Shown here: piece by piece, positions 34,290 through 46,928 of the stretch
How positions within the stretch are numbered: the first letter of the stretch is position 1
Layout: each line of letters opens with the position of its first letter
Assembly: GCA_019828595.1 (NCBI GenBank)
Contig: JAHQRK010000020.1
Coordinates: 124,001 to 188,000, forward strand
Length of the DNA stretch: 64,000 nt
Source: Aphanomyces cochlioides
Lineage: Eukaryota > Oomycota > Saprolegniomycetes > Saprolegniales > Verrucalvaceae
Direction: 5' to 3'
Notes under the pieces: generated by a model
What the model was told of the DNA's origin: nothing
What the model saw: only the letters and a program-made list of their open reading frames with translations
Databases searched by the model: none
Made by a program: the position numbers and the translations under genes

Positions 34290-36469
34290 ATTTGGAAACT
34301 GTCGTTCTATGGAGTGGAAGACTATCTGGCGCAAGCTGTCAAGCTGAGCATTACTGAAGGGCCAAGTGGAGAGCATAATTACATTCCCGGAAGTGTGATC
34401 AACGTGGTAAAGAATCATGACTTTGGGAATTTTGTTTATCTGCGGAGCTGTTTGAACGAGCTGAGCCTCCATCATGGTTTTCGAGTCCAACAGAAGTATC
34501 GGAACACGAAGTCCGGGAAATGGACATGCACAAAAGCCGGCTGCACATTTTATGTTTGCGCAAGCCGCAAGAGAGATGAATCAATTTCGATCACATCGAT
34601 GGACTTGACTCATAACCATGCCTGCTTCAACAGTCATGCAAATTCACCCCACCCTGCCGTGACCCATGACATGGTAAGTCAAGTGGTCAAACAATTTCAA
34701 CATCGGCAGCAAGTCGGGCAAAGCGGAAACTTGTTGAAGACATGTATGGAACAGTGAATATAGCTTTTGAGAAGTTGGCCTGCTATTTCGAAATAATTGT
34801 AAACCACAACCCAGGAACATACGCCAAAGTTGAAACACTGGAAGGAGTATTCTACAGATGTATTCTTATTCCAAACTTTTGCAAAATGCCTTTCCATATT
34901 GTCAGCCCTTGATTGCTCTTGACGGTGTACATTAAACCAGAATTTTTCTTATCTTTTGTAGGTGCACATATGAAAGATTTGATGAACGCAAATGGAACGT
35001 TACTACTTGCTACAGCAAAGGATCCAAACAACCATCTTATTGTCTTAGGTAACGCAGACACGGACTTCTCGTATGACAATATTTAACAGGGATTGCAGTC
35101 GTTCCTGTTGAGTGTGGGCTTCATTGGAGTTGGTTTCTAAAATGCCTTCAAGAATCTGGAATATTGGACTCGCGAATCGTTATTGTTTCAGATCGTATGA
35201 AAGGTACAGGAATGTTTTTGGAAATTGAATCGTGTAAAATTATGCAAAGCTTTCATTTTTTCGAATTTAACAAACTGCCAAAAGTTTCGCAACTTCTAGA
35301 ACTTCTGGTGCTTCTAGTTTGTGAGTTCTGGTGCTTCTAGTTTGTGAAGCTTTTTTATACATCCCAAGTCCCATCCATGGGATATTTAAGTGTTCAGATT
35401 CTTACTTGCGTGTAGGATTGATCAACGCTGTCAGCGACGTCTGTCCAAATAACTCTCATAGATACTGCATGAGGCACATTGTTGCGAATATGAATTGCAC
35501 CATTGGTCAACATCTTTCTCCCAATGAAGAGTCCCTTGTGTACAAACTTGCCAGATCCGACAGTGCAGAAACTTTTGAGCGATATCTCGAAAAGATGAGA
35601 ACATCAAATGAAAGTAAGTTGTCGACTCAATTATCACGTCATGTCGGACAGGAGCTGCAACTTACTTAACGCAAATACCGCGAAAAAATTGGGTCACTTA
35701 TGCTATCGCTCGACCAACATTTGACAATGTCACATCTAACCTGGCCGAGGGCAACAACGAACGAACGAATGGCTTGGGAAAGAGTTACGAAGTTTGGACA
35801 TTATTACTCTTCATTTCCGCTATATGCATCACTTACTTCGAAACGTAAGAGAGAAGGTATTGTGCTCCCAATACTTCGTTCATCTAGAAGTTTCTATTCT
35901 ACTGCAACCTCTAGAAGCACTAGAAGCTCTAGAATCTTCTTGTCAAACTTTATCTCAAATTTTCTTAGGTTAAAAAGTAAATCATGGCCAGAGGAGGCGA
36001 TAACACCTGTCCATAAAAAACAAATGGATCAACTCATGACTAAGTCACGCATCATCGTGGTAGGAGTGCTGAACTGTCGATGACTGACTTCTCAACAGAT
36101 TGATGAATGTGAGCCAGGGAAAACGTATTTAGCCTTGTACTTTGATCCTTTGACAGATGTACGACATTTGTGGCGTCTTGTCAATTTGGAAGAAAAGACA
36201 TGCCAATGTAGAGTTTGGTTTGACACGAAAAAACCTTGCATTCATGCTCTTCGGTGCTACACCGGATTAGGATTAAATCCTACAGAGCACATGGATGATA
36301 CATTTTCAACCAAAAACTTCAAGAAAATGTACGAAGCGAATCTCACACCAGTAATCTATCGCGTGATGCAGCGTCGAAAGCTCCAAGAACTTGCGATCCT
36401 GACGGAGACAAATCAAAGCCAGGACCGAAGCCAAAGCGGCGAAAGAAATCAAAGGGAATGCGTAGTTAG
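34290..36469 (+). pseudogene. MULE (Mutator-like) transposase, broken
   Basis: No initiator ATG is seen. Domains in order: an N-terminal zinc-binding region (KWTCTKAGCTFYVCASRKRD ... THNHAC), a MULE catalytic core with PLIALDG (first Asp; 34905-34922), IVIVSDRMKG (second Asp), and SNLAEGNNER (Glu), then a SWIM zinc finger CQCRVWFDTKKPCIH. Probable introns at about 34920-34961, 35048-35089 and after RMKG (35200) restore phase. Frameshifts near 34735 (before VEDMYGTVN) and near 36400 (before GPKPKRRKKSKG) do not look like introns. The frame ends with the stop at 36467-36469. MULE enzymes excise elements with long terminal repeats; none was found here with certainty. Confidence 0.7.
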
Positions 36470-37579: not shown

Positions 37580-38186
37580 AATCCAGATAACTTCCAGATA
37601 ACCAAATAATTACCCTGATGAGTAGTGATGCTTGTGCTCCAATCAATCAGAGGGCTGGATTTATCGTAAAACACTGACAGACATCGACACCGATAAAACT
37701 TACTATAAAAATACGTAGTTTGATAAATATATAATCGACGATACATCGCATTTCAATTTAGATATAAGATACAATAAATCAAAATATCATTTATTAATAT
37801 TAAGAAAGAATAAACTATATAAATATTATAATAAAATCAATATTTTATTTTTTTGCTATAATATAGTTAAAATGACTTATAAAATATTTAGAACAGATTT
37901 AATTTATAAAGAAGTTCAGCAAAAAATATCTCTATTAAAGCAAGAAAAACCTATAATAGATAAATATTATTCAGAATTAAGAGCAAAGGTTAAACCAACT
38001 TTTGATGAACTACCTCCAAATCCAGATGAAAATCAAATAAGATATTACTTAACAAATGCTTTATCACCGATATTAAAAGACCAAACATCAAACTTTATAG
38101 CTAAACTAAGTACTTCAAATGACCTCATTGCTTTTTACAGATTGAGTTCTGATTTCTTATTTAAAGTAAAAGATCTTAAAGGTATA

Positions 38187-39839
38187 CTTCCTCTGTTCCA
38201 CTTTACCGCCGACCGAGAAAAACTAACTTTTTCCACTTTACCACCGACAATTCATTACCATTGGCTACAAATCAATTTCATGCATATTATTGGTTAAAAA
38301 CATGCAGGTCGCAGAGGCTCAGATTAAAAATGATTCAGGGCAATCCACAGTCGTCATGAGTGTCCCGCGACGCCGCAATGCATCCTTGCGAAGGTGTGGC
38401 AAGCGGAAATAGTTGCCGCCCTTGTTCTCAATGACAAGGCACATGACTGCCTGCAACGTCAAAAACACATTCTCCAGTTTCTCTTCATCAATGCACTCAA
38501 ATGCAGTGAGCGTTGCATGGATAACATCATCGACGGTGCGACTTACCATCTTGTATTGTAGGGACTGGATTGAAGCAAAGAAGCCCAAGTCCAGAACATT
38601 GAGATCTGGACTATTGGGGGGTTGACGCCTCACAACGAAGACCCACCCGTCCGTCGACACACTCGATAGTATCTCATCGGTAATCAAGCCATGTGGAGTC
38701 GCGTTGTCGTGCTGTAAAACAACACGTTTGTTCTTCGTAGGGAAACGTGCCTTGATAGCAGGTATAACTCTTGTAAAAACGTATTCTTGATAGACTTGAG
38801 CATCAACATTTGTCAAGGTGGTCACAAGCGTCCCAGCAGGTCGATTTCTCGAGCTACGTTGTGCAGGCAAGTTCTTGACGATTGGCCACATGCCAATCTT
38901 TCCATTGAACATTCTCTTGCGCTCATCGTCGTATCTAGGTCGAGCAACTGCAGCAATGAACATAACCTTTGGAAGAAAGCGCTTGCTCTTGCACGATCGG
39001 TAAAGTGGCTCCTCACCGTCAGTAAGGTACACTTTGCGTGTGTCCTTGTCACCATTAAACCATTTCTCATCAAGGTGCACGACATCCCACATTCCATCAA
39101 AGTGGGGGGTTTCAGGAGGACCGGCTTCGCCGGCGGAATCCGCGAGCTCGGCCGGAGCGCAGCGACGGACGTGCAAAAATCAAGGCGTTGAAGAGCATTT
39201 GAAGTTGTCAAGAGTGGTTGGAGTCGCGATGTACAGCGCTTGAGGGTCCCTTGGCGGAGACTGCGGTGAATTGTCGTCAATGGTATTCCAGCTGCTTCAG
39301 ACAGATCGCGCATGGTTGAGCGCAAACTTTGAGGTATTTCACGTGCGATGGTCCTGACTTCTTGTTGGGTGTAGATCGGTTTACGACCAACTTTGCCGAG
39401 TTTGCCCGATGGCATCAAAGGATTGACCGCGAAGTCGTTCAAAATTTTCGCCACTGTTGTTCGATGCAAGTTGAAATAAGAGGCAGCATTGGATATTGCC
39501 CCACGGGGCAGCTTTCCCAGAGTCTTGAGGTCATTGAGATACGTGACCACCTCCATCTTCTTTGAGTAGGACAGTTCGCGCTCGTGGCGTACTTGGTTCA
39601 TCTGCTCAGCCCCCAATTTTATTGTGAGAATTTTATATTTTGCAATTTTATTCCAGGGTGATTTAAACGATGTCGTTTTTGGGCGCCAAAATGGTCTTTT
39701 CGCGCTTTCCAGTCAATGTACACTTCCTCTCATTTTTATGCTCTTTCGAACATGATATATTTCGTCTTGATTGACGAAGAAATAAATTTTTGAGGTCACT
39801 CGGATGGCCAACGTCGGCGGTAAAGTGGAACAGAGGAAG
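38187..39839. mobile_element. Mariner/Tc1-type transposon, copy 1
   Basis: Inverted ends CTTCCTCTGTTCCACTTTAC with complement GTAAAGTGGAACAGAGGAAG, flanked by TA at 38185-38186 and 39840-39841. Carries one transposase on the minus strand. Its higher GC contrasts with the surrounding virus-like DNA. Confidence 0.9.
38319..39601 (-). pseudogene. Mariner transposase, copy 1, one frameshift
   Basis: From ATG 39601 (MNQVRHERELSYSKKMEV) the helix-turn-helix region is open to NALQRLDFC, then the frame shifts at a run of five T near 39178. The catalytic part continues with VVHLDEKWF (first Asp), VVLQHDNATPH (second Asp) and NSPDLNVLDLGFF (third acidic position, Asp), ending at 38319. All three catalytic acids are present, so only the frameshift separates this copy from an intact gene. 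Confidence 0.8.
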
Positions 39840-40266
39840 TAGATAGTAATTTCTTATTTGATTTATGGAATAAACATAAACAAAGAATGCTAAATAATGC
39901 TAATTCTTCTTCGGAATTAGAAGAAAAAAATGCTATTCCTGTAGTTCAACCAATGGATGCACCTTATGGTATACCACCGTCTGGAGCCCCACATGCAAAA
40001 CGCGGTAGAAAACCAAAAGATGAAAATAAATCTAATGCAACAAGATCGAATGTAATAGATCAACTAAAAATTAGTCCTTTATTCTAGGCAAAGCAAAGTA
40101 ATATCTTTGATATACCAGATACGTCTTTATCTGGTCATGGAATACATAAAACGCATCATAACACGTTAAAACGAACAGTTGGTAGAGGTATAGTTGGACA
40201 TACTTATGTAGCTCGTAGATAAATATTATTTATATAATTTATCTTTATATATATATGCTGCTAATT

Positions 40267-40584
40267 ATGAGTGATTTAAATATACCTACATACATTCAAA
40301 TTAACAAAGATAGATTTAAAGAAAGAAGACGAACTTGGGCATTTGCTAATAAAGATAAAATTAGAGAATATAATAATCGTTGGAGAAATAAGAACAGAGA
40401 ACGTTTAAGACAACAACAGGCTGAATATAATAAAACAGGTTATTATAAATCAAAGTTAATAGAACGCTTTAATGTTTTGAAAGATGAATTGCTAATAAAT
40501 AATGACAGTAATGATTTATTAATTGAATTAAGTAATGTATTAGATGAAATGCAAAAATTAAATATAATTGATGAAGAAGAATAA
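40267..40584 (+). CDS. Small charged virus-like protein (105 aa)
   Basis: From ATG 40267 (MSDLNIPTYIQINKDRFKE). Rich in Arg, Asn and Glu with a KDKIREYNNRWRNKNRERLR block. Repeated KDKIxEYNxxYxxxNKE motifs are common in small proteins of large and polinton-like DNA viruses, sometimes next to zinc fingers or nuclease domains; none is attached here. The frame is intact. Preceded and followed by very AT-rich spacers. Confidence 0.45.
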   Translation: MSDLNIPTYIQINKDRFKERRRTWAFANKDKIREYNNRWRNKNRERLRQQQAEYNKTGYYKSKLIERFNVLKDELLINNDSNDLLIELSNVLDEMQKLNIIDEEE

Positions 40585-40634
40585 AATAATTTTAAAAATA
40601 TTTTTAATTTTTTTTTTATATAAATAAAATAAAT

Positions 40635-41539
40635 ATGTCTGGTTCAAGTTTAATAACATTGAATTCAAGCAATGTATCAACGACTCAAACAAACACGTTT
40701 AATTACTCGTTTCCTTCAGGTAGTGTTAATTTCAAGAATTCTCGCGTTGCTGTCCAATCTATTATTCCTTATAGTTGGTTAAATGTCAATGATATTGTTT
40801 ACAATAATGCTGCTTTACATTTAATTTTCCCTGTAAGAATTGCTGGTAGTAATACAACAGCTACTTTAAATTTAACAATTCCTAATGGGTTTTACACTGT
40901 TTCTCAGCTTAATTCATATCTTCAAAGTCAAATGATAGCCGGTGGATACTATTTAGTCAATGGAAGTTCTCAAAACGTGTATTACTTGGAAATTGTTGAT
41001 AATACTCAATTAATAATGCTCAACTTAATTGTTACGTTGTTCCTACTATTCTACCTGGAGGATACTCTTACGGTAGTACAGGAACATGGGGTGCTGCTGG
41101 AATTGGTAGTTTTAGTACAGCTGGTAATCTCGTCCCACAATTAGTTACTTTAAATAATAATTTTGGTAGTCTTATTGGTTTTGCTTCAAATACCACTTTT
41201 CCTGCTTCAAGCAGTTGTTCAACTACTGTTAGCACAACATCTTCTCTTGTTCCTCAAATTACTCCAGTACAAAGTATTTATGTAGGTTGTAGTTTAGTTA
41301 AATATATTTATGCAAATCCGACAAATATTGTTTGTAATATACCTTTAACATCAGCATATGCTACAAATATACTGTATACTCCTCAGGAATTCGTTTGGTT
41401 ACCAATTTTATCTTGTAATTTCCCAAGTTTTACAGTACAATTTTATGACCAATCATATCAAGATTTACCAATAATTGATGTGAATCTAACTATTAACTTA
41501 TTAATTGAGACTAATAATGCAGCTTCTAATAATAAATAA
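40635..41539 (+). pseudogene. Penton/minor-capsid-like protein with one frameshift
   Basis: Opens MSGSSLITLNSSNVSTTQ and is rich in beta-prone N, S, T, V and Y. The blocks RVAVQSIIPYSWLNVN, PNGFYTVSQLNSYLQSQMI and QNVYYLEIVDN are the type seen in single-jelly-roll penton (minor capsid) proteins of polinton-like viruses and virophages. Near 41010 the frame shifts by one (at TTAATAATGC). The remaining ~175 codons continue in the new frame with QLNCYVVPTILPGG and a long beta-rich tail to TAA 41537-41539. Full length would be about 300 residues. Assignment rests on motif memory, not on a search. Confidence 0.5.
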
Positions 41540-42186
41540 ATATACTACTCCCGTCCGCAATATTTGTAATATTGTTTTTGTCTTGTTTTAAGTATTGGCA
41601 ATAGTTTAATTAAGTATAAATTTTACGTCAACTTTTTGGCTAAAAGTACAACATTTAATTTAATCTTGACTAATGTATGAGTGATGTTGATGCAATTCGG
41701 GAAGAACAAGACTCAACAGCACGTTTCGAAATCCCATCGATGTCTTGGCGGTATATGAGCGCTTGATTGGCACTCTGCAAAGGTAGTTTATATGATTGTC
41801 TTGTGTAGTGGATGCCATAGTGGTCTACGACTGCACAGCGGAACTTTTTTCATGATTACAGTAGAGTAGTCTGTGTTTAAGGAGTTGTTTCTCTCAATTG
41901 AATTTGATTCAGAGCACTTGCAGATAGTCCAATCAAAGAGCACGGTTATGTCATTCGACATGGATATGTTGGAGGTAGTATTAATCACCTAATACATCAT
42001 ATTAAGCACGGAGGAGGTAATATTACTGAGCTTAAACATCAATTGGCTAATTTAATAATAAAGTCGAATCCTAAAAAGTTCATCGCATTAAATTTTAATG
42101 ATTATTTAATTAGCTCTTGGGTTAATTATTTAATTAAATTATGTATTATTTTGTTAGATTTAATATAATCTCGAAAATTTAATATA
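41540..42186. other. Spacer with a virus-like fragment and a host-like insert
   Basis: 41540-41690 is AT-rich non-coding. About 41690-41935 is compositionally host-like and unrecognised. From about 41955 to 42168 a + frame reads HLIHHIKHGGGNITELKHQL and on to a stop, without a start codon; it resembles the His/Gly-rich style of the gene that follows and may be its displaced 5' part. Confidence 0.35.
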
Positions 42187-42700
42187 ACATCAACATAAAC
42201 ACGCAGATGGTCATATTCCAGTACATGTTCATTTAAGTAAAGCGCAAGTGTCTAAAGATAAAAATGGGCATCCCATTCAGTTGAGTCATTCACAAATAAA
42301 TGTACATGGTCATCAAATAATTCATGCTTATCCAGAAAATTATACAAAATTATTACATTCCCATCACCATAAAAAAGGTGCAAGAATTCATCTAACTCAT
42401 CACGAAATGGCGAACGGCAAAGGCTCTTGGGATGTTCTTAAATCTATTGCTTCTCCTGTATTAAGTGGTCTCCAAGGCGTTGCGAAGGAAATATTCCCTG
42501 ATTCAGCAAAAACAATTGATAATATTCGAGACGGGATTAGAACAGCTACTGGATACGGCATCAAACCACATAAGAAAGCTATGTTTACTCACGGTGGTGG
42601 GCCAGAATATTTTCCTGCTCAACATGCTGGTAAAGGGATTAAAAATCGTCATAAAAAAGACGCAAGGGGAACTGGTATACAACCATCTGGTCAATATTAG
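42187..42700 (+). pseudogene. His-rich basic virion-like protein, start codon missing
   Basis: Open from 42187 (after a stop) to TAG 42698-42700, with no ATG before the conserved-looking part. The first ~75 codons are His-rich (HIPVHVHLSKAQVSKDKNGH, HHHKKGARIHLTHHEMANG). An amphipathic segment follows (GSWDVLKSIASPVLSGLQGV), then a Gly/Lys-rich tail ending GTGIQPSGQY. A basic protein with one amphipathic helix near capsid genes is typical of minor virion components of adeno- and polinton-like viruses. Function is inferred from style only. Confidence 0.4.
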
Positions 42701-42768
42701 GGATAGTTTGTCCATTTTAATTTTAATTTAAACATATGGCGCAACCATATATACATATATAAAATATA

Positions 42769-43359
42769 ATGAGTAAATATAAAATTGGAATTGTCTATCA
42801 AATATTTTACAACGAAAATCCAGATATTCGATATATTGGGTCTACTACTACATCATTAACTAAACGAAAATTTGTACATAAGGAAAATTCTAAGCGATGG
42901 ATTAATGGTAAAACGGTAAAAGAAATATCAATATTTAAATATTTTAAAGAATATGGTTTTGAAAACTTTACAATTATTAAAATTAAAGAATATGAAATTA
43001 TAGACCAAAAACATCTATTAGCTATAGAAACATTATGGTTTAATAAATTGCAATGTATTAATAAAGTAATTCCTTTTCAACCTCATTGGAAGCATAATAG
43101 AAAATTGTATGAGAAAAAACGAATTAGACCTGATAATCATAAAGATAAACAATAAATCAGATACAAAGAAAATAAAGAAGAAGTATTAAAAATAAACTCT
43201 GCATTTAGAGAGCTTAATAGAGAGAAAATAAATAAACAAAAACGTGAATCAAATGCACCTTATAAATCTAAAAAATATTATTGTGAAATTTGCGATAAAG
43301 AAATATGTTTCAGCGGTAAAAAGAGGCATATTAGAAGATTCATAGGTAATATTAAATAA
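42769..43359 (+). pseudogene. GIY-YIG endonuclease-like protein with C-terminal zinc finger, one in-frame stop
   Basis: Starts MSKYKIGIVYQIF; the GIY-YIG core is GIVYQIF ... IRYIGSTTTSLTKRKFVHKE, with a Glu of the active site probably in LLAIETLWFNKLQC. The frame meets TAA at 43153-43155 after ~128 codons. It then stays open without a shift for 67 more codons to TAA 43357-43359, ending in a zinc-finger segment YYCEICDKEICFSGKKRHIRR. GIY-YIG plus a small C2H2 tail is a common pairing in mobile and viral genes. The stop is probably a recent nonsense mutation. Confidence 0.65.
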
Positions 43360-43407
43360 ATATTATATCTCATAATAAATATATATTTATTATATAATAT
43401 AGCAATT

Positions 43408-43688
43408 ATGAGTTTATCTGATGATGGGAAAAATAAGAAAAAATATGAAGACTTTATTAACAAATGCCATGTAATACAAACTGTTTTAAAGATTATATTA
43501 CTGGTTGGTATCCACATACAAAAGAATGTATAGACTTTAGAAAACTTCATCATGAGTCCTTCGTTGAATGTTCGAGTATTCTCTGTATAAAGATGAATGA
43601 AGCACAATATTTAATCCCTACTTATACGAGACCAAAACCAAAAACAATTATAATTGAATTAACGTATTATGATTCAGATTATGAATGA
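43408..43688 (+). pseudogene. Short virus-like gene with frameshift
   Basis: ATG 43408 (MSLSDDGKNKKKYEDFINKC) leads to a stop, while the adjacent frame continues from 43464 to TGA 43688 with FKDYITGWYPHTKECIDFRK and a C-terminal IIIELTYYDSDYE. A one-base shift near 43470-43490 would join the two parts (about 90 residues). No family recognised. Confidence 0.35.
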
Positions 43689-43746
43689 TTTTAACTTTGA
43701 ATTTTAATTTAAACATAAGATTACAATTTATATATACTTAGTAAAA

Positions 43747-43923
43747 ATGGTTACTAATTCATCGGAATACATGAAAGTATATTATCAAAAAAATAAAGAT
43801 AAATTAGGTAAAGTAGTTCATATTGTTTGTGATTGTGGTATGAAAATTAATCGTACATCTAAAAGTTATCATATTAAAACTAAAAATCATTTCTTTTTAT
43901 TAGAACAAAAAATAAAAAATTAA
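43747..43923 (+). CDS. 58-aa zinc-finger protein, virus-like
   Basis: MVTNSSEYMKVYYQKNKDKL is followed by CDCGMKINRTSKSYHIKTKNH, a C-x-C ... H-x5-H pattern. Short proteins pairing a YYxKNKxK lead with this finger type occur in polinton-like and giant viruses. Intact; AT-rich codons match the island. Confidence 0.5.
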   Translation: MVTNSSEYMKVYYQKNKDKLGKVVHIVCDCGMKINRTSKSYHIKTKNHFFLLEQKIKN

Positions 43924-44489
43924 GCTGTTATACAGCAGGTTAGAATATTTTCCAAAATTAATTAAATTTTAATGTTTGGATGTATTTTTTATCTAATTGA
44001 GCTTTTAATTCATAATATTTTGATTTGTAATCTATTTCTTCATCATTATCGTAATAGTCATAAACTCCTTCTTCATTGTTCTTTCGTGTAGTTGTTACTT
44101 CACCAGAGTCAATATTGTCCTTTTCAGTGAAATGTGGACTTGGCAGGTCATTGGCCAAATCGCATATCAATCGTCTATGCTAAATTTAATATGAAATATT
44201 GTATAGTATACAAAGTTAAGTACAATTTCTTCCTAGCAATGGTACCTGCATCCCAGAATACCGTCATGCATGATTTCTACGCCCAATACAACCTCGTTAT
44301 GAAGTGTCAAGTCGCCGCGCGTATCTTCCGCGAGTCAGCGTCCATCTTGGCCTTTCCCCACGGCCTTTCCCCAAGTCATATAATTAAGGTGATTTGATTG
44401 GTCAAAATATTGAAAATACTGATATATGATTGGCTAGTCGATTGTTAGTCGATTCTGGCAAGTCGATTCGATTCGACAGCCCAGTCCAA
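43924..44489. other. Fragment of a minus-strand virus-like ORF plus a host-like insert
   Basis: On the minus strand, 43958 to about 44120 encodes a charged C-terminus (YDYYDNDEEIDYKSKYYELK). Upstream of it (about 44125-44480) the sequence is GC-richer and host-like (reads ARIFRESASILAFPHGLSPS on +), probably an unrelated insertion between this fragment and the Rep-like gene. No complete gene. Confidence 0.35.
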
Positions 44490-45430
44490 TTTGGAATCGA
44501 ATGCATAATCTAATTCTATCGGAGCTCCATTGCGATGTATCAACTCGAAAATTAGTTAGAATAAAAACGTGAGGCTTGGGATATCTGCATTTGCCCCCTT
44601 CGTATTTACCTGAACTTAAACCATTTTGAATTTGTCCTATAGCACCATATTGATTATAGTCTTTACCTTATCGTGGTATATCTAAAATTATTATTTGTGG
44701 AACGTGTCCTTTGTCCATTAGAGTTCTTATTTGATTAAATATATTATCTTTTCCGTCGGCTATGATAACATTATAATCTAAATCTAATTAATTACAAACA
44801 TGTGATTTACCAATATTACCAGAATTTATTTTTATTCCATTTTTAATTTTATCAACATCTTCAATGCTATAAATAATTCGTGGATCAGCCTTATTCTTAC
44901 AAATATTTAAAATTCTTTGTTGAAATTGTTTCCATATTGTATTTTCAATCTCTTTTTTCATGTCTTCGTACATTGTTTTTGTATAATAATCATTTACTGC
45001 ATTTATCATTTTTTGGCCTAAATAAACTTGGGGATAGTAATCATAGAATTGCTCTTTTGTTAACTTTTGTAATTCACTAATATCAATACCATTATCATCA
45101 AAAACTTTTTCAAATGGTTTATGCGAAATTTGTTTCGTTTATCATTGTCATTTAGAATTACGTTTTCATTTTGTTTAAATGATGAATATATGATATAATG
45201 TTCAAAAATCTTTTTTAATGATGAATCAGTAATTGCTGATGCAAATTTGACCGATACTACTTCTTTTTCTTTTTCTTCAATTCCATTGGGATCAATTTTT
45301 CTCGTAAATGAATTTATAATTTCTTCTTTTGTATTAGTTGTAAATAATAATATATGTCTACTCTTATCATTTGCTATATTAACTTTTTTTCATCTTCATT
45401 TTTTAAATTTTCTAATTCAACGTTTGACAT
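44490..45430 (-). pseudogene. Rep/SF3-helicase-like protein (CRESS-DNA type), multiply broken
   Basis: Reads from ATG 45430 (MSNVELENLKNEDEKK) toward 44490 with frameshifts near 45390 and 45125 and in-frame stops near 44790 and 44670. Helicase motifs remain in order: Walker A NSGNIGKS (normally GxxxxGKS), Walker B-like PQIIILDIPR, the segment IGQIQNGLSSGKYEGGKC, and motif C PHVFILTNF. The IPR after Walker B and the KxGxxxSGKYE stretch are typical of Rep proteins of CRESS-DNA viruses and related plasmids rather than of D5-type helicases. The N-terminal HUH nuclease motifs were not found. Only the C-terminal helicase half is convincing. Confidence 0.55.
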
Positions 45431-45572
45431 TGTGTATATTATAATAATTTTAAATTATATATATTATATAATCTTATCTTTAAATTAAAATTAAAAATAA
45501 GTGAAACATGAAATAGTGTAATATCGTATAAATCAGTAAATAGTGGTGATTATGTAATACAAAAATGCAAAT

Positions 45573-45664
45573 ATCATTGAAACGTGGTGCCTAACAACGG
45601 GAGATATTACTGATACAAATATGCATAAATCATTGAAACGTGGTCCCTAACAACGGGAGATATT
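45573..45664. repeat. Two-copy direct repeat, period 56 bp
   Basis: A 36-bp block beginning ATCATTGAAACGTGGT and ending GGGAGATATT occurs at 45573 and 45629 with one mismatch. It lies between the virus-like island and the second Harbinger element and could mark the right edge of the island. Confidence 0.65.
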
Positions 45665-45856
45665 CCAAAATGTAAACTCTGTATAATAGAGACCTTTCGG
45701 TAAGCCCAACTTTGACTTTGACTTAAGGATTTTAACCCAAAGTCGACATTGGAGAAATTCCTCTTTCGGTACATCTTAGACTTAGAGTTAGGATATGTCC
45801 TGATTGCTGGTGTCTTGCAAGCCTGTACAGGAGACATTGACGAGTTCTTATCGATC

Positions 45857-46928
45857 ATGGATATCCTGATATCTCACAACGTGTTTCGCTCACGACCTGA
45901 GCGGCCATTAGTCTGTTACAACAATTCCTTCAATCGCTTCTTGGACGACGGAACGGCGATTCACAACTACCGTTTCACTATTTCTCAGCTGCAAACCCTT
46001 TCTATCAAACTTCAGTTACCACATTTCATTGTTACTCCGTCGAAGGACAGCGTTGATGCTTTAGAAGCGTTAGCACTCGTATGTCGACAAATGACAGAGC
46101 CGTCGCGTCTGTTTACGACGGCGAATGAGTTTGGGCGCTCAGTTGAGGCCTGCAGTCGGATTATCATGGAAACAATTCGACTCATTCACAAAGCTTTCAC
46201 AAAAATACTGTACTTCCACGAAAGATTGATGACGGCTCGTTGTGGTAAGTCTTGTCTTGATGTCTTCCTAATACTTTATAGCCGAGTATGCTAAAGCTAT
46301 TGAGGTGCGGAGTGGTCTCAGTGGCTTGAAATCTTGTATCGGTTTCATCGAAGGAACTAAACAGTTCATATCTCGTCCAACGCCACGACTCAATGCATCT
46401 GCGGACGAAAATCTACAACGGTCTGTCTACAATGGCCATCCTAGAAGGCATTGCCTTAATTGGCAAGGCATTGTCGTTCCCGATGGCTTGATAATATCTA
46501 TGTATGGCCCTGTAGAAGGGCGAAGACATGATTGCACGGTTCTATCGATGAGTCGTGTTATGGACATTTTACATGGCAATGCCTCTCAGCGTGAATACTG
46601 CTTGTACGGCGATCCAGCATATGGTTGTCAACAGGGTTTGGCCAGCCCTTTTCCGAATGCTTCTCCTGGATCAAACGAGGCTGCCTTCAACTCATCGATG
46701 AGTGCCGTCCGAGAATCCGTCGAATGGAGCTTTCACATCATCAAGAGTCTATGGGGTCACATCAGTTTTGACAAGAAAATGAGAGTACGGAGCTCACCAG
46801 TGGGCGTTTTCTGGCTCGTCGCAACGCTTCTCACCAACTGCAAAACTTGTTTGAAGCCACAGGGAAACCAGGTCTCTCAATACTTTGGTGTAGCTCCACC
46901 AGCACTCGACGATCTCTTGACTGCGTAG
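45857..46928 (+). CDS. PIF/Harbinger-like DDE transposase with Glu at the first catalytic position
   Basis: Two exons, 45857-46244 and 46282-46928 (37-nt intron), 344 residues, intact. The core reads CIGFIEGTKQFISRPTPR, then LNWQGIVVPDGLIISMYGPV and GRRHDCTVL, then YCLYGDPAYG (second Asp) and SVRESVEWSF-like with the third acid. In this family the first motif is normally F/AIDGT; here it is FIEGT, an Asp-to-Glu change at the metal-binding residue. Such a change usually weakens or abolishes cleavage, so the element may be inactive despite an open frame. ATG 45857 is the first in frame. Confidence 0.75.

Follow-up and report, generated by a model that had tools for sequence, protein, structure and literature searches.

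We analyzed a window of 64,000 nucleotides from the oomycete Aphanomyces cochlioides (contig C13, 124001-188000; genome of 94 contigs and 76.2 Mb) and found an AT-rich island at 37821..45690 (no strand assigned, inserts included) which, judged from its genes, is a truncated and decayed remnant of a polinton-like virus (PLV) and not a complete member. Most probably, the island is the fossil of one integrated PLV, whose lineage replicates with a helicase derived from the replication protein (Rep) of circular Rep-encoding single-stranded (CRESS) DNA viruses. With three inserts excluded, the island has a GC content of 0.27, compared with 0.475 and 0.447 for its 10-kb flanks, in agreement with the AT-rich island described by the first-pass annotation. 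That annotation had placed the ends at 37660 and 45480; the island exists, and its ends lie nearer 37821 and 45690. On the left, 77-97% DNA identity to colinear stretches of contigs C31 and C45 starts at 37829/37821, and on the right, sequence in common with contig C18 extends to about 45690. The virus genes read in the island were also recovered, but three foreign insertions (38185-39841, 41545-41947, and 44114-44505) had been left unseparated from them.

The helicase is related to CRESS-virus Reps

The superfamily 3 (SF3) helicase gene of the window is a CRESS-Rep-like pseudogene on the minus strand (44009..45430; pieces 44009-44113, 44506-45114, and 45105-45383) with stops and a frameshift. 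As the first-pass annotation had read, the motifs follow SF3 order: GNIGKS lies in the open reading frame (ORF) 44788-45138, IIILDIPR runs into an in-frame stop just above 44667, and SGKYEGGKC and PHVFILTNF lie in ORF 44434-44667. The SF3 Walker A, Walker B, and sensor motifs are all present in the helicase. The window pieces are 71-74% identical to the intact helicase of C18 (best E 1e-117), which has 367 aa from its first ATG; residue numbers below refer to its 370-residue translation. The pattern GGNAAYATHGGNAARTCN occurs three times in the 76.2 Mb, in the window, in C18, and in one chance match. The latter, a P-loop-pattern match at L001 on C1, sits within an unrelated ORF and was rejected.

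Searching with the C18 protein by phmmer (best 120 of 122 matches), we found 5 matches of the same lineage at 49-66% identity and 115 matches beyond it at 31-50% identity, 114 of which carry the CRESS Rep domain PF02407; a profile search (best 120 of 131) agreed with this picture. In hhalign, 10 PLV rows aligned with 24 CRESS rows at 49% identity over 154 columns (P 100%, E 8e-60), spanning C18 residues 158-321 and beginning at the linker ahead of the helicase. The CRESS-like IPR/SGKYE wording noticed at first pass thus reflects real homology. According to the accessible text of one report (PMC4642659), SF3 helicases are frequent in PLVs and some arose independently, which would favor an ordinary PLV helicase whose likeness to Rep arose by convergence. 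Both the hhalign result and the PF02407 count among the matches listed argue against this, and we regard convergence as extremely improbable.

The first-pass annotation had proposed a helicase phylogeny as a check, and an unrooted helicase-domain tree of 113 rows placed the 13 PLV-type rows in one clade (support 100/99) beside the CRESS-like rows. The rows comprised the 13 PLV-type sequences, 8 of which are database proteins assigned to PLVs by similarity only, 99 CRESS-like sequences of the 115 (16 that lacked the expected linker motif were removed), and 1 other; the broken window, C31, and C12 copies were left out, and the bootstrap had not settled. Since the tree is unrooted, it would also accommodate the reverse direction, in which the SF3 helicase domain was born in PLVs and acquired from them by a subgroup of CRESS viruses. 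Consistent with such a transfer, in the PCV2 Rep chain 7lar a CRESS profile found the nuclease part only and not the helicase part, which suggests that this helicase type is distinctive. CRESS Reps generally combine a nuclease with an SF3 helicase, and this counts against the reverse direction, as do the more numerous and diverse CRESS rows (99, gathered with a PLV query, versus a single clade of 13 rows on a stem of 0.64) and the resemblance of the PLV N-terminal domain to a decayed Rep nuclease. Although Rep chimerism is published (accessible part of PMC5923481), we consider origin in PLVs unlikely.

The dN/dS values point to purifying selection on the helicase. Among intact copies they were 0.06-0.35 in the three of six pairs with finite dS (1.6-2.8, near saturation), and the three window pieces compared with C18 gave 0.14-0.22. 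A second helicase subtype, 34-36% identical to C18 (L029:6542-7834, L033:6932-8125), was observed in C45b and C2 (see below) and in the database protein P0242; its start is Cys-rich, of the MCNxxxCxNK...CRKHH type.

Relatives of the island in the same genome

A search of the genome with the window helicase piece gave 8 matches, the window counted (8/8 candidates scored). Two of the loci are on C45, namely a colinear copy (C45a) and a separate element (C45b). Long open helicase ORFs are present at four loci: C18 (367 aa), C45b (430 aa), C6 (368 aa), and C2 (397 aa). By tblastn, the window, C31, C45a, and C12 have the same order, with a His-rich gene, a 105-aa gene, and a 58-61 aa Cys/His gene followed by the helicase on the opposite strand. 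In C18 the same small genes adjoin the helicase, with a 99-aa ExoX-C-like gene between and the His-rich homologue on the other strand, and in C2, C6, and C45b the helicase is accompanied by other PLV genes.

Because C31, C45a, C12, and C18 hold the helicase at the same place, these results indicate a single insertion. Of the two readings offered at first pass, one PLV with a Rep-type helicase is therefore supported by a gene order repeated in C18, C31, C45a, and C12, and the same four copies contradict integrations side by side. The latter reading, a PLV fragment next to a separate CRESS-virus Rep fragment, would fit the position of the helicase on the strand opposite to the other window genes, and Rep insertions do occur in eukaryotic genomes (accessible part of PMC3198968). 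However, the helicase stands beside the same small genes in those four copies and with PLV genes in C2, C6, and C45b, and its nearest database relatives also lack Rep nuclease domain annotation, so that two adjacent integrations have hardly any likelihood. An assembly chimera was ruled out, as colinear copies are found on separate contigs and the inserts are repeats spread through the genome.

From one end to the other the C18 element measures 18.0 kb; its terminal inverted repeats (TIRs) are 382 bp long and 99.0% identical, and both flanks have the 5-bp sequence ACCTT (read from the printed ends), a target duplication. It encodes an rve integrase (PF00665) with a chromodomain (Chromo, PF00385), and C2 also has an rve integrase (PF00665, 309 aa). 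The A32-type packaging ATPase (PF04665) was above the cut-off in C18 (N-terminal piece), where the gene lies in two frames, and in an abundant Polinton family of this genome (family X). C18 further has two adjacent penton-like genes, the first of them split, and a 569-aa capsid-like ORF. The C18 capsid query matched 57 genome stretches (62 candidates; stretches are counted here and for the penton, and one gene may give several). Capsid-like ORFs of the relatives have 569-585 aa and 207 database homologues, and they gave no family or PDB sequence match. Among the best 120 of these 207, relatives up to 88% identical lie on other database contigs, the longest being 16,256 bases. A 134-aa ORF of C18, which we take to be a protease by its motif, had no Pfam or NCBIfam match. 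Judged by sequence, the element family thus combines ORFs in the positions of capsid, penton, packaging ATPase, and protease with an rve/chromodomain integrase and a Rep-like SF3 helicase. Scans of viral contigs with the helicase and the capsid, as single sequences and as alignments, confirmed 0 relatives.

C18 also encodes a 934-aa repetitive fibre-like protein with a Peptidase_S74 endosialidase-chaperone domain (L006:3135-5939), which is perhaps a receptor-binding fibre. Homologues were found in C2, C6, C31, C45a, C45b, and the C13 Polintons, and none in the window or the examined part of C12. In C18, a perfect 20-nt palindrome, GGTCTGCAACGTTGCAGACC (C18:402958-402977, L004), is situated between the start of the helicase and the terminal repeat, which itself holds a 48-bp tandem repeat in 3.4 copies; this area is possibly an origin or regulatory region. 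At the same threshold, set by shuffles preserving base content only, no palindrome was found upstream of the helicase in the window, C2, C6, or C45b, so no origin stem-loop is shown to be shared. Just beyond the C45b helicase there is a cluster of inverted repeats of about 75-82 bp (C45:1611882-1612506, L029), possibly the terminal region of that element.

The N-terminal domain lacks the HUH motif

By sequence, only the helicase half is recognizable as Rep. The HUH/HUQ and YxxK motifs were both present in 24/24 CRESS rows, and HUH/HUQ was found at the sheet position in 0/10 PLV rows. A YxxK-like Tyr is present in 7/10 PLV rows and not in C18, and may be a catalytic-tyrosine relic remaining in some copies. 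No Pfam match to Viral_Rep was obtained in the three helicases scanned. A PF02407 search of the genome itself gave 0 matches, and 14 control genomes were also silent, so this does not show absence.

Alternatively, the protein may have remained a nicking Rep, with a diverged HUH nuclease that drives rolling-circle replication. A motif-I-like RNxxxFT is nearly invariant, the Tyr of the 7/10 rows (residue 104) together with a conserved Lys 109 could be motif III, and HYH occurs in 4/10 rows and HFH in one. Against this, no column of the N-terminal domain has His in 7/10 rows, the HYH lies within a predicted linker helix and is not in C18-type rows, and C18 has Arg at the Tyr position despite its intact gene. 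A nicking enzyme is accordingly improbable; the helicase half of the protein is close kin of CRESS Reps, and the HUH motif is gone.

Structure comparisons predict, not decisively, that the N-terminal domain resembles HUH/origin-binding domains, nearest that of polyomavirus large T. In VIA-align with the N-terminal domain, the 50 rows held large-T origin-binding domains and then mostly RRM-type domains, with no Rep nuclease among them. Foldseek with the model of the whole helicase (of moderate quality, pLDDT 72) against the PDB gave AAA+ proteins, 1/750 at E <= 0.001. Searched by sequence against the PDB, the single helicase returned noise only, and the helicase profile returned noise and four designed PPR repeat chains (E 5e-5 to 2e-4, 2-3 bits per repeat unit).

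The virion genes occur with two replication modules

Family X was found at C13:224-262 kb and encodes a 1,057-aa protein-primed DNA polymerase B (pPolB; PF03175, E 2e-27) and a 362-aa integrase. We observed two copies there with intact long ORFs (G000:C13:224001-262000, L041-L044), about 36-74 kb to the right of the window. Their proteins (pPolB, integrase, capsid, penton, fibre, and others) are 99-100% identical, and in one copy the terminal repeats are identical over at least 111 bp; such near-identical copies indicate a recent expansion in this genome.

The C2 element matches family X with 73% identity in the penton, 79% in the ATPase, and 76% in a 51-residue capsid piece. In place of the family-X module it has the Rep-like helicase of 397 aa together with a protein of 178 aa and a polymerase-like ORF of 408 aa; its integrase, of 309 aa, is also a different one. 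The Rep-like helicase had no match in the examined stretches of the C13 Polinton family, and the family-X pPolB had none in the examined parts of the eight helicase loci. Since the virion genes of C2 match family X, yet no match to the family-X pPolB was found beside its helicase, a replication module has been swapped. The polymerase-like ORF of roughly 400 aa (L034:1219-2445 in C2) has homologues in C18, C45b, and C6, and among the loci examined it occurs only with the Rep-like helicase. We take the 408-aa ORF of C2 to be polymerase-like from its YDKKxFYP and TDS motifs; it matched nothing in Pfam and did not align to the pPolB of 1,057 aa.

The helicase and the gene of the 178-aa type are close divergent neighbours in C6 and C45b, neighbours on the same strand in C2, and at opposite termini in C18. 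The two genes of C2 are separated by a transposase-like ORF, on either side of which stand 39-bp inverted repeats that match at 85%. All these positions would follow from a single circular gene order, and this is a hint at most, as they might also be due to gene relocation.

Genes and insertions of the window copy

The first gene of the window copy, probably of virion function, is split into halves at 37872..38184 and 39842..40087 (both plus strand). The first half has 87-88% amino acid identity to C31 and C45 and no Pfam family at a useful E-value. The DNA is unbroken in C31 and C45, where the halves adjoin at 341365/341367 and 1140252/1140254, respectively. Between them lies a Tc1/mariner-type transposon (38185..39841, minus strand) with perfect 29-bp inverted repeats and HTH_Tnp_Tc3_2 (PF01498, E 2e-7). 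Its target is TA, judged from the uninterrupted C31/C45 sites, and it has five full-length matches in the genome at 96-100% identity, the window's own counted. A small basic protein of 109 aa follows (40255..40584, plus strand), with 86-97% amino acid identity to the C31 and C45 copies (two pieces each) and weak PHROG matches only.

The penton-like capsid gene (40635..41539, plus strand) is broken in frame near 41.0 kb. Intact Polintons of this genome have a gene adjoining that of the packaging ATPase, to which the window gene is 33-38% identical in the N-terminal half and 24-29% in the rest. As a query it matched 50 genome stretches (51 candidates), many in open frames of 286-294 aa; against the PDB the protein gave noise only, and the penton assignment is putative. 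Next to it, a 403-bp repeat is inserted (41545..41947, no strand assigned) that is not in C31 or C45; it has 28 genome matches, own and pieces counted, and the best other full-length copy is 98% identical. The His-rich small virion-like protein (170 aa, 42188..42700, plus strand) has 70-88% identity to C12, C31, and C45. Its counterpart in other PLVs of this genome is a protein of 159-180 aa, with 25-31% identity to the C18, C2, C45b, and family-X versions.

The GIY-YIG homing-type endonuclease reported at first pass (42769..43155, plus strand) matches PF01541 with E 3e-4 and 21.5 bits, slightly below the Pfam cut-off of 22.6. The assignment holds to that extent, but the gene is not constant across these elements. 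It is 46-51% identical to C18 and C45b versions located elsewhere in those elements, and is absent at this position in C31 and C45a, which suggests a mobile passenger. A possible zinc-finger tail follows at 43156-43359, past a stop. Then come a broken copy of the conserved 105-aa PLV protein (43405..43688, plus strand; its two pieces are 62-71% identical to the unbroken protein of C18) and the small Cys/His protein of 58 aa (43747..43923, plus strand), which has 69-95% identity to proteins at the same place in C12, C18, C31, and C45. Within the helicase gene there is a 392-bp repeat insertion (44114..44505, no strand assigned) with genome copies of 89-100% identity; 40 matches of 158 genome candidates were scored, the window's own counted. 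The terminal region upstream of the helicase (45428..45690, no strand assigned) contains two 52-nt direct repeats (45557-45608 and 45613-45664). The second of them includes CGTGGTCCCTAACA, which is also inside the C18 terminal repeat, and the first has a one-base variant of it.

Frameshifts or stops break the helicase and also the penton-like and 105-aa genes, and the window copy is dead. As the first-pass annotation had stated, no major capsid gene was found: two capsid queries gave no tblastn match within the 64-kb window. In C31 and C45, the DNA immediately upstream of the counterpart of the first window gene holds capsid-like pieces, which indicates truncation. The window copy has thus lost its capsid end, and several of its genes are broken or interrupted. 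In the flanks we observed a DDE_Tnp_4 transposase on the right (PF13359, E 3e-16; window 46272-46928) and a weak MULE match on the left (PF10551, E 3e-4, below the cut-off; window 35331-35669).

Discussion

No protein-primed PolB, the mark of a strict Polinton, was recognized in the examined parts of the helicase-bearing elements. The genome of a CRESS virus is circular single-stranded DNA of about 2 kb, whereas C18 is an 18.0-kb capsid-type element with TIRs. The Reps of Cressdnaviricota (PF02407 and SF3 helicase) share with the PLV helicase the SF3 domain and the preceding linker (31-50% identity among the matches listed) and differ in retaining the HUH motif.

A large-T-like mechanism is likely. 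The nuclease domain of a captured Rep would have lost catalysis and turned into a domain for origin binding such as polyomavirus large T has, and the hexameric SF3 helicase would melt an origin in a terminal or intergenic region. Its partners may be the small polymerase-like protein and host enzymes, replacing the pPolB of ordinary Polintons. The rve integrase would insert the genome, giving 5-bp target duplications, and integrated copies would later decay through transposon insertion. Large T carries a J domain; none was seen in the PLV helicase, the virion is different from that of SV40, and the likeness to large T is not one of sequence. The same virion-gene lineage occurs with either replication module, as C2 and family X show. 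That a PLV lineage rebuilt its replication on a captured ssDNA-virus Rep, with nuclease becoming origin-binding domain, pPolB giving way to a small polymerase-like protein, and a circular replication form, is a tentative proposal about which our doubts outweigh our confidence.

Oomycete PLVs themselves are already known, with up to 299 capsid copies per genome and with pPolB and/or rve, or a primase-helicase and tyrosine recombinase (accessible text of PMC10120064 and PMC7805220). From the same sources, the Gossevirus (GKS1) group of PLVs/Polintons of oomycetes resembles the present elements in host, integration, TIRs, capsid genes, and GC contrast, and some members have 5-7 bp target duplications or an rve integrase; a CRESS-Rep-type helicase is unmentioned in the parts available. 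In the text accessible to us, a 2015 paper already notes PLV SF3 helicases that arose independently and have unassigned N-termini (PMC4642659), and a 2023 paper notes helicases with a fused domain of unknown nature (PMC10120064); some of these may be of the same Rep-like kind. The available part of a cryptophyte PLV paper lists other replicases (PMC12220804), and those of PMC11903649 and PMC8204020 hold nothing further on CRESS-Rep-type helicases in oomycete PLVs. No statement on such helicases in oomycete PLVs was found in the accessible open literature, subscription papers being outside its scope, and what is new here is the CRESS-Rep-derived helicase without HUH motif in these viruses.

Similar captures have been described elsewhere, as far as the accessible parts of the reports go. 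In avipoxvirus apvRep and in HHV-6 U94, a Rep was captured by a dsDNA virus, the nuclease motifs were inactivated, and the helicase motifs were partly retained (PMC10193959). However, U94 is of parvovirus origin, and most apvReps are genes for a single domain in a large virus (PMC10193959), whereas the protein described here apparently belongs to the replication module of a small one. Adomaviruses of class -Ress likewise join a CressRep to adenovirus-like virion genes, but that work is a survey of animal viruses and its accessible text has no word on oomycete PLVs or nuclease loss (PMC11071296).

The present lineage links two DNA-virus realms at the replication module, joining a capsid-type dsDNA virus of protists to an ssDNA-virus-derived helicase, while the other Rep captures by dsDNA viruses in the sources available to us are poxvirus and herpesvirus genes with altered roles, or animal adomaviruses. 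Since pPolB and Rep-helicase modules are both found in one host genome, module swapping and the possible change from a nicking to a non-nicking initiator are open to comparative study.

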